This document shows positions 26,344-30,834 of a stretch of 64,000 nt of DNA, one piece after another (position 1 is the first letter of the stretch; the number at the start of each line of letters is the position of its first letter). Source of the stretch: Actinomycetes bacterium. GTDB taxonomy: Bacteria; Actinomycetota; Acidimicrobiia; Acidimicrobiales; Acidimicrobilacustridaceae. Below the pieces are notes generated by a model that saw only the letters and a program-made list of their open reading frames with translations, was not told the DNA's origin and ran no database searches. A program made the position numbers and the translations under genes. The DNA lies in NCBI GenBank assembly GCA_029782025.1, contig JAKOVR010000119.1, positions 62,001 to 126,000 of the forward strand, read 5' to 3'.

Positions 26344-27258
26344 GTGAACCGCGAGCGCGCCGGGGTACGACAGGGGAGCGTGCAACCGGTGCTCTGGTAT
26401 CCCGCCGCCCCGAGGGCCCGCGTGCCCGGCTGGGCCGCCACCCTCGCCCTCGTGGTGCTGACCGTCGTCCTGCTCCGAGCCGGCGTCGGTGCGGCCGGGG
26501 GCATGGTGCTCGGCTTCGCCGTGCTGACCCCCGTCGAGCGACACTGGCGCCGACACGACCAGCCGGTGCGCCGGCCGGGACTGCGCACCGACCTCTTCCA
26601 CCTGCTGCTCTCGGGCGGGCTGAACACCGCCGGCCTCGTGGTCGCCGTCGTGCTGTGGGCGATCGTCCTCTTCCCGTTCCGCCCCCTCAGCCTGGCGCCG
26701 TGGTTCCAGTCGCTCCCCGCTGCGGTGCAGGCGGTGAGCGCCTTCGTGGCCCTCGAGGTGGTGGGCTACCTGGCCCACCGGCTCGAGCACGAGGTCGGGT
26801 TCCTGTGGCGCTTCCACGCCGTGCACCACTCGTCCGCCCACCTGGACTGGGTCGCCGGCGCGCGGCTGCACCCGATGGAGGGGCTGATCGTGGGAACCAT
26901 CGTCGCCCCGCCATTGCTGTTCCTCGGGGTGGGGCCCACCACCCTCGGCGCACTCGGGGCGATCACCCAGCTCTGGGGCGTGCTCCTCCACATGAACGTG
27001 CGGTGGCGCATGCGGGCGCTCGACGGGGTGTGGTCGTCGCCGGACTTCCACCACTGGCACCACAGCAACCACCCCGAGGCGCGCAACACCAACTACGCCG
27101 GGTTCCTCCCGGTGCTGGACCGGCTGTTCGGCACCTACCACCTCCCGCGCCAGGGCCGGCCGACCGTGTACGGAATCGACGAGCCGATGCCCGACGGCTG
27201 GTGGCGGCAACTGGCCCATCCGTTCCGTCGACGGCCGGCGGTCGGGCGGGGGAGCTGA
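26344..27258 (+). CDS. Sterol desaturase / fatty acid hydroxylase family membrane enzyme
   Basis: This 304-aa membrane protein has the three histidine clusters that bind two irons: HRLEHE, HAVHH, and HHWHH followed by NHPE. Several membrane helices surround them. Family members hydroxylate or desaturate lipids with oxygen. The GTG at 26344 gives the longest form. A GTG at 26380, preceded by GGGGAG and by TACGAC in the -10 position, is a good alternative start. Context gives no substrate. Confidence 0.85.
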   Translation: MNRERAGVRQGSVQPVLWYPAAPRARVPGWAATLALVVLTVVLLRAGVGAAGGMVLGFAVLTPVERHWRRHDQPVRRPGLRTDLFHLLLSGGLNTAGLVVAVVLWAIVLFPFRPLSLAPWFQSLPAAVQAVSAFVALEVVGYLAHRLEHEVGFLWRFHAVHHSSAHLDWVAGARLHPMEGLIVGTIVAPPLLFLGVGPTTLGALGAITQLWGVLLHMNVRWRMRALDGVWSSPDFHHWHHSNHPEARNTNYAGFLPVLDRLFGTYHLPRQGRPTVYGIDEPMPDGWWRQLAHPFRRRPAVGRGS

Positions 27259-27261
27259 GCC

Positions 27262-27846
27262 GTGCTGACGGCGCTCTGCGAGACTGCTGCCGTGCCGGGG
27301 CCGGGAGACGCCGAGGCGCAGGACCGGTTCCTGCTCGCCGCCATCGCGCGGCACGACCGCGGGGCGTTGGCCGAGCTCTACCGTCGCCACGCCGGCTGGC
27401 TCACGGTGCGGCTGCAGCGCCGGTGCCCCGACCCCGAGTTGGTCGACTCCGCCCTGCAGGACACCTTCGTGGCCGTGTGGCGCCGACCCGACGGCTACCG
27501 CGGGGAGGGCGACGTGGGTGCGTGGCTGTGGGGCATCGCCGTGCGGCGGCTGGTCGACCAGCAGCGCAAGCGCCGTCCCGTCCCAGTGGGCGACGACCCG
27601 ACGGTGGTGGGCGGCGGCGCCGACGCCCCGTCGGCCGAGGCCGCCGCCCTCGACCTCACCTGGCTGGGCGGCGACCTGGCCGATGCGATGGGCGCCCTGC
27701 CCGCCGATCTGCAGGAGGTCCTCGTCGTGACCGCCGTCGACGGCCTCACCACGGCCGAGGCTGCCGACCTCCTCGGCATCCCGCAGGGCACCGTCAAGAC
27801 CAGGCTCATGCGGGCCCGATCCATCCTCCAGGAGCGCATGCGATGA
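27262..27846 (+). CDS. ECF-type RNA polymerase sigma factor
   Basis: This 194-aa protein has sigma region 2 (LAELYRRHAGWLTVRL...DSALQDTFVAVWRRPDGY) and region 4 (LPADLQEVLVVTAVDGLTTAEAADLLGIPQGTVKTRLMRARSIL). The linker between them is short, as in ECF factors. It is followed with 4-bp overlaps by an anti-sigma-like membrane protein and an ABC ATPase, an operon type common in actinobacteria. A GTG at 27292 with GAGACT upstream is an alternative start. The signal is unknown. Confidence 0.9.
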   Translation: MLTALCETAAVPGPGDAEAQDRFLLAAIARHDRGALAELYRRHAGWLTVRLQRRCPDPELVDSALQDTFVAVWRRPDGYRGEGDVGAWLWGIAVRRLVDQQRKRRPVPVGDDPTVVGGGADAPSAEAAALDLTWLGGDLADAMGALPADLQEVLVVTAVDGLTTAEAADLLGIPQGTVKTRLMRARSILQERMR

Positions 27847-28679
27847 ACCCCGTGCCCGAACCGGTGGTCGGGGCCTACGTGGCCGGCAGGATCGACGCCG
27901 CGGAAGCGGTCCGCCTCGAGCAGTACCTGGCCGTCAGCGGCGAGGCGAGGCTGCAGGTCGGCGCGGCGGCCACGGCGGTCATCGATCCCGCCCGCCTCGA
28001 GGCCACGTGGCTGGCCATCGACGTCGTCATCGATCCGCCCCGCCGCCCCTTGGTCGAGCGGGTCGTGACCGCCCTCGGGTTCCCGGCCGACCTCGCCCGG
28101 CTGATGGCGGCCACCCCGGCCATGCGGCGCTCCTGGTACCTCGCCATCGTGGGTGCGATCCTGTTCGGCCTGGCCGCGGCCGGGCCGAACCGGCAGGGCG
28201 GCGGGAGCGAGCTGCTGTTCCTCGTGCTGGCGCCCCTCATCCCGGTGATGGGGGTGGCCCTGGCCTACGGCCCGGGCGTCGACCCCGCCCACGAGGTCAC
28301 CGTGGCCGCGCCGCTGAGCGGCTTCCGGCTCGTGCTGGCCCGGGTGGTCGGCGTGCTGGTGGTGAGCATGGCCTGCGGGGGCATCGGCGCGCTCCTCCTC
28401 GAGCGCCGGGAGGGGCTCATGGCCGCGGCCTGGCTGCTGCCCGCCTTCGGGTTGAGCATGGCGTGCCTGGCCCTCACCACCTGGGTGCGGCCGAAGACGG
28501 CCGGGTGGGCGGTCGGCGGCGCCTGGCTGCTCGTGGCCACCACCGTGTCCAACCGGGCGGCCGACCAGCTGGCGCTGTTCCGGGGTCCGGGGCAGGTGGC
28601 CCTGCTGCTCGTGGGCCTGGCCGGCCTGGTCGTGACGGTGGCCCGGCGCGAGGCCTTCGACCTGGCGAGGGTCGGGTGA
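27843..28679 (+). CDS. Membrane anti-sigma-like protein lacking the zinc motif
   Basis: This 278-aa protein has a short cytosolic N-terminus followed by about six membrane helices from residue 95 onward. The N-terminus (VGAYVAGRIDAAEAVRLEQYL) matches the zf-HC2 anti-sigma proteins that sit between ECF sigma and ABC ATPase genes in actinobacteria. The usual zinc ligands HxxxCxxC are replaced by YLAVSGEA, so all three are lost. The following text (DPARLEATWLAIDVVID, AATPAMRRSWYLAI) also fits that family. It may hold the sigma factor and act as the ABC membrane partner. Start ATGA overlaps the sigma stop. Confidence 0.75.
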   Translation: MNPVPEPVVGAYVAGRIDAAEAVRLEQYLAVSGEARLQVGAAATAVIDPARLEATWLAIDVVIDPPRRPLVERVVTALGFPADLARLMAATPAMRRSWYLAIVGAILFGLAAAGPNRQGGGSELLFLVLAPLIPVMGVALAYGPGVDPAHEVTVAAPLSGFRLVLARVVGVLVVSMACGGIGALLLERREGLMAAAWLLPAFGLSMACLALTTWVRPKTAGWAVGGAWLLVATTVSNRAADQLALFRGPGQVALLLVGLAGLVVTVARREAFDLARVG

Positions 28680-29560
28680 CGGCGTCATCGGTCGTGGCCG
28701 AGGACCTCCGCCTCCGGCTCGGCGGCCACGACGCGCTGGCCGGGGTGTCGCTCACGGCGCGCGGGGGCGTGGTCGCCCTGCTCGGACCCAACGGCGCCGG
28801 CAAGACGTCGCTCCTGCGGTGCCTGGCCACGGTGGTCGATCCCGACGCGGGCTCGATCCGGGTCGACGGCCTCGACCCGGCCGACCACCGCCAGCGGGTC
28901 GAGATCCGCCGCCGCCTCGGGTACCTGCCCCAGGAGGTGGGCTTCGCCGAGCGGGCCACCGTCTTCGACGTGGTCGACTACTGCGGCATCGTGAAGGAGC
29001 ACGGCCCGGCCGAGCGGCGACACGCCGAGGTGGTGCGGGTGCTGTGCGCCGTCGGCCTGGCCGATCGCCGCCACGAGCGGGTCGGGGCACTGAGCGGGGG
29101 CATGCGCCAGCGGCTCGGCATCGCCCAAGCCCTGTTGGGTGCGCCCGGCCTCGTGATCCTCGACGAGCCCGCCAACGGCCTCGACCCCGAGCAGCGCCTG
29201 GCCCTCCGGGAGCAGCTCTCCCGGGTGGGGGAACGCAGCACGGTGCTGTTGTCGACCCACCTCACCGAGGAGGCCGCCGCCTTCAGCCAGGTGCTCCACG
29301 TGATGGACGGCGGCCGCATCGTGTATTCGGGGACCCCGGCCGGCCTCACGGCCACGGCCCGCGGGCGGGTGTGGACGGCGCCGGCGCCGCCGCCGGCCGG
29401 CCCCTCGATCCGGGCCTCGTGGCGCCTGCCCGACGGGCGGTTCCGGTTCGTGGGCGACCCCCCGGCCGGCCTCGCCCTGCCGGTCACGCCGGCCGAGCCG
29501 ACGCTCGAGGACGCCTACCTGCTGCTCGTCCAGCGGGTGCCCACTACCATCGGCGGGTGA
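28676..29560 (+). CDS. ABC transporter ATP-binding protein
   Basis: This 294-aa protein has Walker A LLGPNGAGKTSLL, signature LSGGMRQRLGIAQALLG, Walker B LVILDEPANGLDP and the switch His in LLSTHLTEE. It resembles ATPases of drug- or peptide-type exporters. The GTG start overlaps the previous stop, so the membrane protein before it is the likely permease. The last 70 residues form a small beta-rich regulatory tail. Confidence 0.9.
   Translation: MTASSVVAEDLRLRLGGHDALAGVSLTARGGVVALLGPNGAGKTSLLRCLATVVDPDAGSIRVDGLDPADHRQRVEIRRRLGYLPQEVGFAERATVFDVVDYCGIVKEHGPAERRHAEVVRVLCAVGLADRRHERVGALSGGMRQRLGIAQALLGAPGLVILDEPANGLDPEQRLALREQLSRVGERSTVLLSTHLTEEAAAFSQVLHVMDGGRIVYSGTPAGLTATARGRVWTAPAPPPAGPSIRASWRLPDGRFRFVGDPPAGLALPVTPAEPTLEDAYLLLVQRVPTTIGG
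29545..29550 (+). promoter_or_regulatory. Internal -10 element for rimO
   Basis: TACCAT lies inside the end of the ABC gene, 6 nt before the rimO GTG at 29557. It may give rimO a leaderless transcript independent of the sigma operon. Confidence 0.4.
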
Positions 29561-30834
29561 CTCCGCGGCGGTACTGGATCGAGACGCTCGGCTGCCCCAA
29601 GAACCAGGTCGACTCCGACAAGCTGGAGGGCACGCTGCAGCTCGGGGGCTACCTGCCCGCCGAGGGCCCCGACGGGGCCGACCTGGTGGTGGTCAACACC
29701 TGCGCCTTCGTGGAGGAGGCCCGGCAGGAGTCGATCGACACGATCCTCGCCCTCGCCGACGCCAAGGCCGACGGCGCCGAGCTCGTGGTCACCGGCTGCC
29801 TGGCCGAGCGCTACGGCGACGAGCTGGCCACGGCCCTGCCCGAGGCCGATGCCGTGGTCGGCTTCGGCGTGCCGGTGACGCTCGGCCCCAAGCCGGCCGG
29901 CGCCGCCGTCCCCACCTTCGACCTGCTCAACCTGCCCCGCCCGGCCTCCGTCCGGCCGTGGGCCTACGTGAAGGTGGCCGAGGGGTGCGACCGGGCCTGT
30001 GGGTTCTGCGCCATCCCGAGCTTCCGGGGACCCCAGCGCAGCCGCGCCGTCGCCGACGTCCTGGCCGAGGTCGACGCGCTCGGCGCCCGCGAGATCGTGC
30101 TCGTCGCCCAGGACCTGGCCGCCTACGGACGGGACCGGGGACAGGGGGAGCGCCGCATCGTCGAGCTGGTGGCGGCCGTGGCCGAGCGGGTCGACTGGGT
30201 GCGGTTGCTGTACCTGTACCCGTCGGACCTCACCGACGGCCTCGTCGAGACCATCCTCGCCACCGGCGTGCCCTACTTCGATCTGTCGCTGCAGCACGTG
30301 TCGCCGCCGCTGCTCCGCCGGATGCGCCGGTGGGGCGACGGCGACCGGTTCCTCACCCGCATCGAGGCGATCCGGGCGGTCGAGCCCGAGGCGGCCTTCC
30401 GGTCCAACTTCATCGTCGGCTACCCGGGTGAGACCGAGGCCGACCACGACCAGCTCCTCGCCTTCGTCGCCGCCGCCCGCCTCGATTGGTGCGGGTTCTT
30501 CGCCTACTCCGAGGAGGAGGGCACCCACGCCGCCGGCCTCGACGGAAAGGTGCCGGCGGGCCTGGCCGGCGAGCGCCTGGCCGAGCTGCGGGAGCTGCAG
30601 GACCGCATCACCGAGGAACGACGTGACGAACTGATCGGCCGCCGGGTCAGAGTGCTCGTGGACGAGCCCGGCATCGCCCGAAGTCACCGTGAGGCCCCCG
30701 AGATCGACGGGGTCGTCCACGTGCCCCCGTCGCTGGCAGCGGGTACCTTCGCGGACGTGGAGATCGTGGCGGCGCTGGGACCCGACCTCGACGGCGCGCC
30801 CGTCGCCGCCGCCGACCGTGGGGGCCGGCGGTGA
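29557..30834 (+). CDS. rimO: Ribosomal protein S12 methylthiotransferase
   Basis: RimO adds a methylthio group to an aspartate of ribosomal protein S12. The 425-aa protein has the N-terminal UPF0004 cysteines (LGCPKNQ, NTCAF, TGCLAERY), the radical-SAM motif CDRACGFCAIP, and a C-terminal TRAM domain. RimO rather than MiaB is favoured by the LGCPKN motif and by the rimO-pgsA-cinA order typical of actinobacteria. The GTG start overlaps the ABC gene stop, and its stop overlaps pgsA by 4 bp. Confidence 0.93.
   Translation: MTPRRYWIETLGCPKNQVDSDKLEGTLQLGGYLPAEGPDGADLVVVNTCAFVEEARQESIDTILALADAKADGAELVVTGCLAERYGDELATALPEADAVVGFGVPVTLGPKPAGAAVPTFDLLNLPRPASVRPWAYVKVAEGCDRACGFCAIPSFRGPQRSRAVADVLAEVDALGAREIVLVAQDLAAYGRDRGQGERRIVELVAAVAERVDWVRLLYLYPSDLTDGLVETILATGVPYFDLSLQHVSPPLLRRMRRWGDGDRFLTRIEAIRAVEPEAAFRSNFIVGYPGETEADHDQLLAFVAAARLDWCGFFAYSEEEGTHAAGLDGKVPAGLAGERLAELRELQDRITEERRDELIGRRVRVLVDEPGIARSHREAPEIDGVVHVPPSLAAGTFADVEIVAALGPDLDGAPVAAADRGGRR

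Follow-up and report, generated by a model that had tools for sequence, protein, structure and literature searches.

Many membrane anti-sigma factors are controlled by regulated proteolysis. In Bacillus subtilis, the SigY operon (sigY-yxlCDEFG) brings together an autoregulated ECF sigma factor, a small membrane anti-sigma factor and an ABC transporter, the anti-sigma factor and the permease being separate proteins, and in the BceAB-BceRS flux-sensing modules an ABC transporter senses for the regulator and has a histidine kinase as its partner. For class I anti-sigma domains, PMC7406223 describes contacts of helix 1 with sigma4 and of helix 4 with sigma2, and states that the zinc motif Hx3Cx2C is not obligatory: about 44% of the domains lack it, the zinc can be structural, some groups mix zinc and zinc-less types, and RskA and RseA are members that do not rely on zinc. 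PMC8999054 describes ECF257, a group of ECF sigma factors without a cognate anti-sigma factor that lie beside ABC transporters and AAA ATPases and whose regulation was uncharacterized as of that publication. Hydroxylated ornithine lipids, for their part, have been linked to stress tolerance (PMC3972451).

Here we describe a locus whose telling features are the fusion of an anti-sigma-like domain to a permease-like part, the dismantling of that domain in relatives and a candidate lipid hydroxylase regulon, and to a lesser degree the loss of a zinc site. In the literature searched, which included few subscription papers and had the main ECF reclassification paper outside its scope, we found no anti-sigma domain fused to an ABC permease.

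Operon layout, promoter and candidate regulon

The window, that is, the whole stretch of 64,000 nucleotides that we analysed, belongs to a draft genome of 4.63 Mb in 219 contigs. An earlier note on this DNA had described an ECF sigma factor, a membrane protein and an ABC ATPase in one overlapping operon, and this was borne out, since the three + strand open reading frames overlap by 4 bp each and the triad recurs in relatives. The unit probably begins further upstream, with a hydroxylase gene and a promoter at 26345. The features are as follows (window positions).

26345..26372, + strand: exact copy of the ECF-type promoter TGAACCG-N16-CGACA, 7 nt upstream of the probable start codon of the hydroxylase gene
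26380..27258, + strand: OlsE-like membrane fatty-acid/lipid hydroxylase (PF04116), probably heading the unit, with GTG 26380 as its probable start
27256..27283, + strand: weak second promoter-like site, TGAGCCG-N16-CGAGA (10 of 12 positions), overlapping the hydroxylase stop
27262..27846, + strand: ECF sigma factor, regions 2 and 4 (Pfam); GTG 27292 is the probable true start
27843-28679, + strand: middle protein, 278 aa, its ATG within the sigma stop
27843..28034, + strand: N-terminal class I anti-sigma-like domain, zinc-less (AlphaFold models, PDB fold matches)
27924..27947, + strand: YLAVSGEA where HxxxCxxC is expected (Y28, S32, A35; family alignment)
27987..28031, + strand: predicted helix 4 segment, residues 49-63, retained by bundle-less relatives (model and alignment)
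28086..28670, + strand: predicted six-helix ABC-2 type permease domain, residues 82-276 (AlphaFold model and VIA-align)
28676..29560, + strand: ABC ATPase, its GTG within the middle-protein stop (Pfam and motifs)

The sigma factor has the ECF architecture, with regions 2 and 4 (Sigma70_r2, 9e-11; Sigma70_r4_2, 9e-14; Pfam) and no region 3, and it scored 67.9 bits against a cut-off of 42.9 for TIGR02937 (NCBIfam); its start is probably GTG 27292 rather than 27262. The ATPase (ABC_tran, 3e-30, Pfam) has intact Walker A (GPNGAGKT), LSGG, Walker B (VILDEP) and H-loop (STH) motifs. A RimO gene (MiaB-like radical SAM, window 29557-30834) starts inside the ATPase stop, and may therefore be co-transcribed with the operon. 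Judged by eye, a RimO-like gene also lies 3' of the operon in L081-L084, and the bundle-less loci listed showed none over a distance of about 2.6 kb.

Across the phylum the triad was found with the sigma gene in 68 of 71 loci and the ATPase gene in 64, the 71 including duplicates and contig ends. A 4-bp start-stop overlap, counted with script-chosen start codons, was present in 54 of 65 loci. Left out before this count were L030 (a fragment), L031 and L080 (kinase fusions without sigma) and L068 and L079 (duplicates); L028 had no usable start in it, and L051, cut by a contig end, was also left out of the permease tree.

The word TGAACCG-N16-CGACA headed a spaced-word enumeration upstream of 69 sigma genes, as one family of overlapping hits. 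Upstream of these genes 18 sites were exact, 37 matched at least 11 of 12 positions and 54 at least 10, as compared with 0, a mean of 0.25 and a mean of 3.95 in shuffled sequences, counts that are partly circular because the motif was derived from these same sequences. The genome scan is less circular, some of its sites being among those that yielded the motif: 13 genomes of the Acidimicrobiia clade described below held 29 exact sites against 4 for the reversed pattern, with at least one site in 12 of them. Ten of the 29 precede a sigma gene, ten an OlsE-like hydroxylase gene and nine other genes or none; the distances are 3-78 nt to the sigma start and 1-29 nt to the start of the window-hydroxylase homologue. 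PF04116 was confirmed in all four hydroxylases scanned behind sites, and three of the ten hydroxylase sites lie on contigs separate from the sigma operon (G000:C137, G379:C275 and G448:C461). Back-to-back promoters between sigma and hydroxylase genes occur in five genomes. Nine clade loci were examined with longer flanks, and in each a site matching 10 to 12 of the 12 positions precedes the hydroxylase gene, L081, L082 and L074 being among those in which this gene lies upstream on the sigma strand; the family mate G687 has no exact site and carries an 11/12 site before its hydroxylase. These upstream sequences suggest that the sigma factor is autoregulated, from a promoter with an AAC-type -35 element; a search of the same literature for the -35 word found nothing relevant. 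The start codon follows the -10 element by 5-9 nt in 14 of 20 sigma or hydroxylase sites (window 26372-26380), a short spacing that suggests leaderless transcripts.

The exact copy at 26345 is the only one in the window and one of four in the genome, the others preceding a paralogous sigma operon (C80), a second hydroxylase (C137) and an esterase (C105). The last of these (G000:C105:9224, - strand, locus L119) lies 7 nt before a PHB-depolymerase-like esterase gene with a lipoprotein-like start, whose product is over its cut-off for NF050058 (NCBIfam); an FA_hydroxylase gene is found about 2 kb from it on the opposite strand. Regulon counts use exact sites alone. Matches with up to three mismatches were not in excess in the window (51 against a shuffled mean of 72.8), the second site at 27256..27283, with its two mismatches, is not significant alone, and one-mismatch sites in the genome barely exceeded the control (14 against 10). 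Among the matches listed for nine further clade genomes, one-mismatch sites exceeded the control in eight, G310 being the exception. Outside the clade, 26 genomes held 20 exact sites against 2 in the control. The 19 examined (L150 was left out) include five sigma genes and two genes from those neighbourhoods that, by eye, appear to encode membrane proteins, and no hydroxylase was found behind them, so that the promoter-hydroxylase link appears clade-specific. At L149 (G052:C206), an exact copy precedes what by eye is a Cu/Zn superoxide-dismutase-like gene, on the sigma-operon contig.

A hydroxylase gene adjoins the operon in 16 of 20 clade loci and in 0 of 49 outside (Fisher 2.5e-12), a value that overstates the evidence because the clade is one lineage and its loci are not independent; most loci show only about 0.9 kb upstream of sigma, and L044, with no upstream DNA, was left out. 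Two of the ten FA_hydroxylases in the window genome carry the exact site and the other eight reach at most 10/12; in a hydroxylase tree the promoter-bearing ones fall on one side of a branch with a support of only 42. The window enzyme (PF04116, 5e-28, Pfam) has OlsE as its best NCBIfam hit, at 147.3 bits against an equivalog cut-off of 475, and the genome contains no match to PF13444 (OlsB-type). Because of these two results the substrate is probably another lipid; ornithine lipid was considered and rejected for want of the OlsB-type match.

The middle protein: zinc site, predicted fold and permease-like part

Searches with the middle protein returned nothing significant in Pfam or NCBIfam (no match at E≤1) or, for the whole model, in plain Foldseek (no E≤0.001). 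The earlier assignment to zf-HC2 was thus not upheld for the window copy, which does not reach the PF13490 cut-off of 22.2 bits; of ten relatives scanned, eight do give a zf-HC2 hit with E≤0.025 and a score of 15 to 32 bits, a single one exceeding the curated cut-off, and the two without a match are bundle-less. The reading of YLAVSGEA as a replaced HxxxCxxC proved correct, in that all 45 zinc-type rows show H, C and C in the columns of Y28, S32 and A35; as these rows were picked for carrying the motif, the alignment tests no more than its placement there. The window copy also lacks the WH that is usual at the N-terminus. Since the replaced residues are the family's zinc ligands, the window copy cannot sense through that site; to this extent the proposal that it no longer senses through zinc stands, but to equate zinc loss with a lost sensor is an overstatement, the motif being often absent and the zinc sometimes structural. 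Zinc loss as a main finding was rejected as ordinary, because so many class I domains lack the motif (PMC7406223).

The AlphaFold model of the whole protein (15 sequences, pLDDT 78) places four helices at the N-terminus, ahead of the membrane helices, and the N-terminal domain folded alone again gave four helices (pLDDT 87), at residues 6-13, 19-31, 33-46 and 49-63. Of 24 Foldseek PDB matches of the domain, the top 19 are chains of seven anti-sigma entries, namely ChrR (two), RslA, DdvA, RsiW, MucA and RskA, the matched chain being taken as the anti-sigma partner by its length. Against ChrR the domain gave a Z of 7.4 and an rmsd of 6.3 over 66 residues, the best unrelated row having a Z of 2.3. 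The match list is uniform; the Foldseek E is weak (0.19 at best) and the Z is under 8, and such a weak E and large rmsd may be expected for 73 residues. Y12, E26 and R36 are invariant in a 14-row alignment of the domain and present in the window copy. The modelled domain therefore looks like a class I four-helix fold, that is, a three-helix bundle plus helix 4.

For the membrane part (residues 81-277), the first 22 VIA-align rows by Z are membrane parts of ABC transporters and the next, unrelated row has a Z of 7.7. The values over about 190 residues were 11.9 for ABCG5/G8, 11.5 for a mycobacterial efflux pump and 10.2 for NosY, so that even the best lies under the guide value of about 13 below which helical bundles can match by chance. 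The model suggests a six-helix ABC-2 type permease that is a likely partner of the ATPase; on the two fold comparisons combined, the anti-sigma factor is most likely the permease. When Acidimicrobiia loci with longer flanks were passed through a crude ORF filter, no obvious second permease gene appeared directly behind that of the ATPase, L074 excepted, where a 274-aa protein with seven hydrophobic stretches follows; elsewhere, for instance in L087, L089 and L094, more membrane genes lie downstream.

The same six-helix domain also occurs without the anti-sigma part, fused to a HisKA_3/HATPase kinase (L080:3077-4567, - strand; by eye, a similar stretch at L096:5212-7158, - strand) and to a guanylate/adenylate cyclase (L079:4663-6012, - strand), L079 and L096 being on contigs that carry a sigma operon. 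The permease-like domain is thus paired with three different outputs: anti-sigma domain, kinase and cyclase. In all three proteins the BLAST match begins beyond helix 4, between residues 66 and 71 of the window protein, and the helix-4 segment therefore looks linked to sigma, as far as three controls can tell.

Loss of the bundle in relatives

Relatives of the middle protein were found in 29 of 296 phylum genomes, 40 of 397 order genomes and 3 of 37 family genomes sampled, each count including the genome of the window itself. A further copy in that genome, L002 on contig C80, has the motif intact. The family mates L058 and L059 (53 and 50% identity) also retain HxxxCxxC. The tree built from the membrane part, with 64 rows and with alignment columns starting at residue 47, contains 19 rows without the motif and requires five motif changes, of which the starred branches force at least three. 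The window groups with two zinc-type mates at a starred branch (95), so that its zinc loss looks separate from the others. A sigma tree, from which duplicate rows and fragments under 121 residues were left out, recovered the same Acidimicrobiia clade independently of the permease gene (starred, 99), its Acidimicrobiia rows forming one starred clade of 20.

Within this clade the window, L032, L034 and L042 have an N-terminus of bundle length without the ligands, and 15 loci lack the bundle, eight with a short N-terminus and seven with a truncated or unlike one. A first bundle-less clade comprises L010, L033, L035, L036, L037, L039 and L040, which start 6-12 residues before helix 4, and is joined by L051 in the sigma tree. 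The second comprises L038, L041, L043, L044, L047 and L053, with 27-34 unlike residues before helix 4, and is joined by L022, whose start was set 41 nt into the frame, so that its row in the identity comparison is too short; a GTG that keeps helix 4 is likelier. The short N-termini depend on taking the start codon that overlaps the sigma stop. Conservation in the first clade is highest in the helix-4 segment, at 64% pairwise identity against 47.5% for the permease, as compared with 27% and 36% in the 45 zinc-type rows. The pattern holds in one of the two clades, the values in the second being 40% and 51%. The high conservation in the first speaks for a kept contact. Taken together, the Acidimicrobiia form a series in which the ligands are lost with the fold kept (window), and then the bundle is lost with the helix-4 segment kept.

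Outside the clade, L066 lacks the motif, and in L087:2126-2827, from an uncultured member of the Corynebacteriales far from the Acidimicrobiia clade, the whole bundle is gone with sigma and ATPase kept. We also considered sigma substitutions tied to bundle loss and rejected them: of the seven positions at which bundle-less rows differ from zinc-type ones, five lie in region 4, and phylogeny accounts for the differences equally well because five of the seven are common to both zinc-type family mates.

Possible mechanism and relation to known systems

The account that we favour, and consider reasonably probable, is that a zinc-independent anti-sigma/permease protein holds an autoregulated sigma factor controlling lipid hydroxylation, with the state of the transporter as the probable signal. 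The ECF sigma factor would read TGAACCG-N16-CGACA and drive the hydroxylase-sigma-permease-ATPase operon and, judging from the promoter copies, also the paralogous sigma operon, the second hydroxylase and the esterase. The cytoplasmic four-helix domain would hold sigma without zinc, on the model of RskA or RseA; going by the fold, helix 4 would sit on sigma2, and sigma4 would be bound by the bundle. The ATPase would work with the permease domain of the middle protein, and a change in transporter state, such as a lipid-like substrate engaging, might loosen the domain and free sigma, this being the least certain step. Freed sigma would raise the levels of the transporter and the lipid hydroxylase, and hydroxylation would be expected to alter the membrane. 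Coupling of sigma release to an ABC transporter, which the earlier note had suggested by way of the ATPase, is plausible, and in a more direct form, because the modelled membrane part of the anti-sigma factor itself resembles an ABC-2 permease. It is also possible, and we suggest it only tentatively, that the permease-ATPase is itself the sigma switch: helix 4 on sigma2 would chiefly hold sigma, the transport cycle would free it, a zinc-binding sigma4 bundle would be unnecessary, the window would be an intermediate and its relatives the minimal form, and lipid hydroxylation would be tuned. The bundle may matter little in the window, given that relatives lacking it retain the promoter.

A scheme in which the domain restrains sigma and release comes from proteolysis or a membrane cue, the ATPase being merely a co-regulated target, differs from our favoured account in the last step alone and seems to us somewhat unlikely. 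Co-transcription is no proof of coupling, and regulated proteolysis of membrane anti-sigma factors is common; against this, no separate extracytoplasmic sensor domain was seen, the permease itself carries the anti-sigma part, and the fusions of the six-helix domain to a kinase (L080) and a cyclase (L079) are as expected of an input domain. More doubtful still is the idea that the domain is an anti-sigma remnant being lost, with sigma unrestrained and controlled by its level or by autoregulation alone. All 15 bundle-less clade loci keep sigma, and all but L051, at a contig end, keep the ATPase; 10 of 16 bundle-less rows have a site of at least 10/12 upstream of sigma, and the separate look of the zinc losses in the window and elsewhere fits as well. 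The window copy, however, keeps the fold in the model together with the three invariant residues, and helix 4 is the best conserved segment in one bundle-less clade, not in the second. We think it improbable that this is an ordinary zf-HC2-like anti-sigma factor that has lost a structural zinc and has an ABC ATPase beside it without a functional link: the abundance of motif-less domains and the mixed groups described in PMC7406223 would suit it, but a single polypeptide contains both the anti-sigma and the permease-like domain, and the triad is found repeatedly across the phylum.

If the favoured account is true, the locus would represent a signal-transducing ABC transporter with an ECF sigma factor as its output, and a natural series in which an anti-sigma domain is dismantled stepwise while the circuit survives. 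It would also offer a candidate regulator for ECF groups that lie beside ABC transporters without a known anti-sigma factor, and would link a family of bacterial lipid hydroxylases to a sigma factor, with a defined promoter and target gene. Were the sigma-switch version true, a transporter would act as an anti-sigma factor tuning membrane lipid hydroxylation.

The closest described proteins are the class I anti-sigma factors (ChrR, RslA, RskA, RseA and RsiW), with which the window protein shares the predicted four-helix fold and a gene beside an ECF sigma gene; it differs from them in that the domain is joined to an ABC-2-like permease of six helices, which has an ATPase gene of its own, and in having relatives without helices 1-3. 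ECF257, as described, is alike in combining an ECF sigma factor with a conserved ABC transporter neighbour, whereas here the permease carries an anti-sigma domain or, in relatives, only helix 4. The window hydroxylase is, like the ornithine lipid hydroxylase OlsE, a PF04116 membrane enzyme, but scores far below the OlsE cut-off. As in the BceAB-BceRS modules, an ABC transporter would be the sensor, with the permease bearing an anti-sigma domain instead. The SigY operon contains the same kinds of genes in one operon, and in the window the anti-sigma-like domain and the permease-like part are fused.
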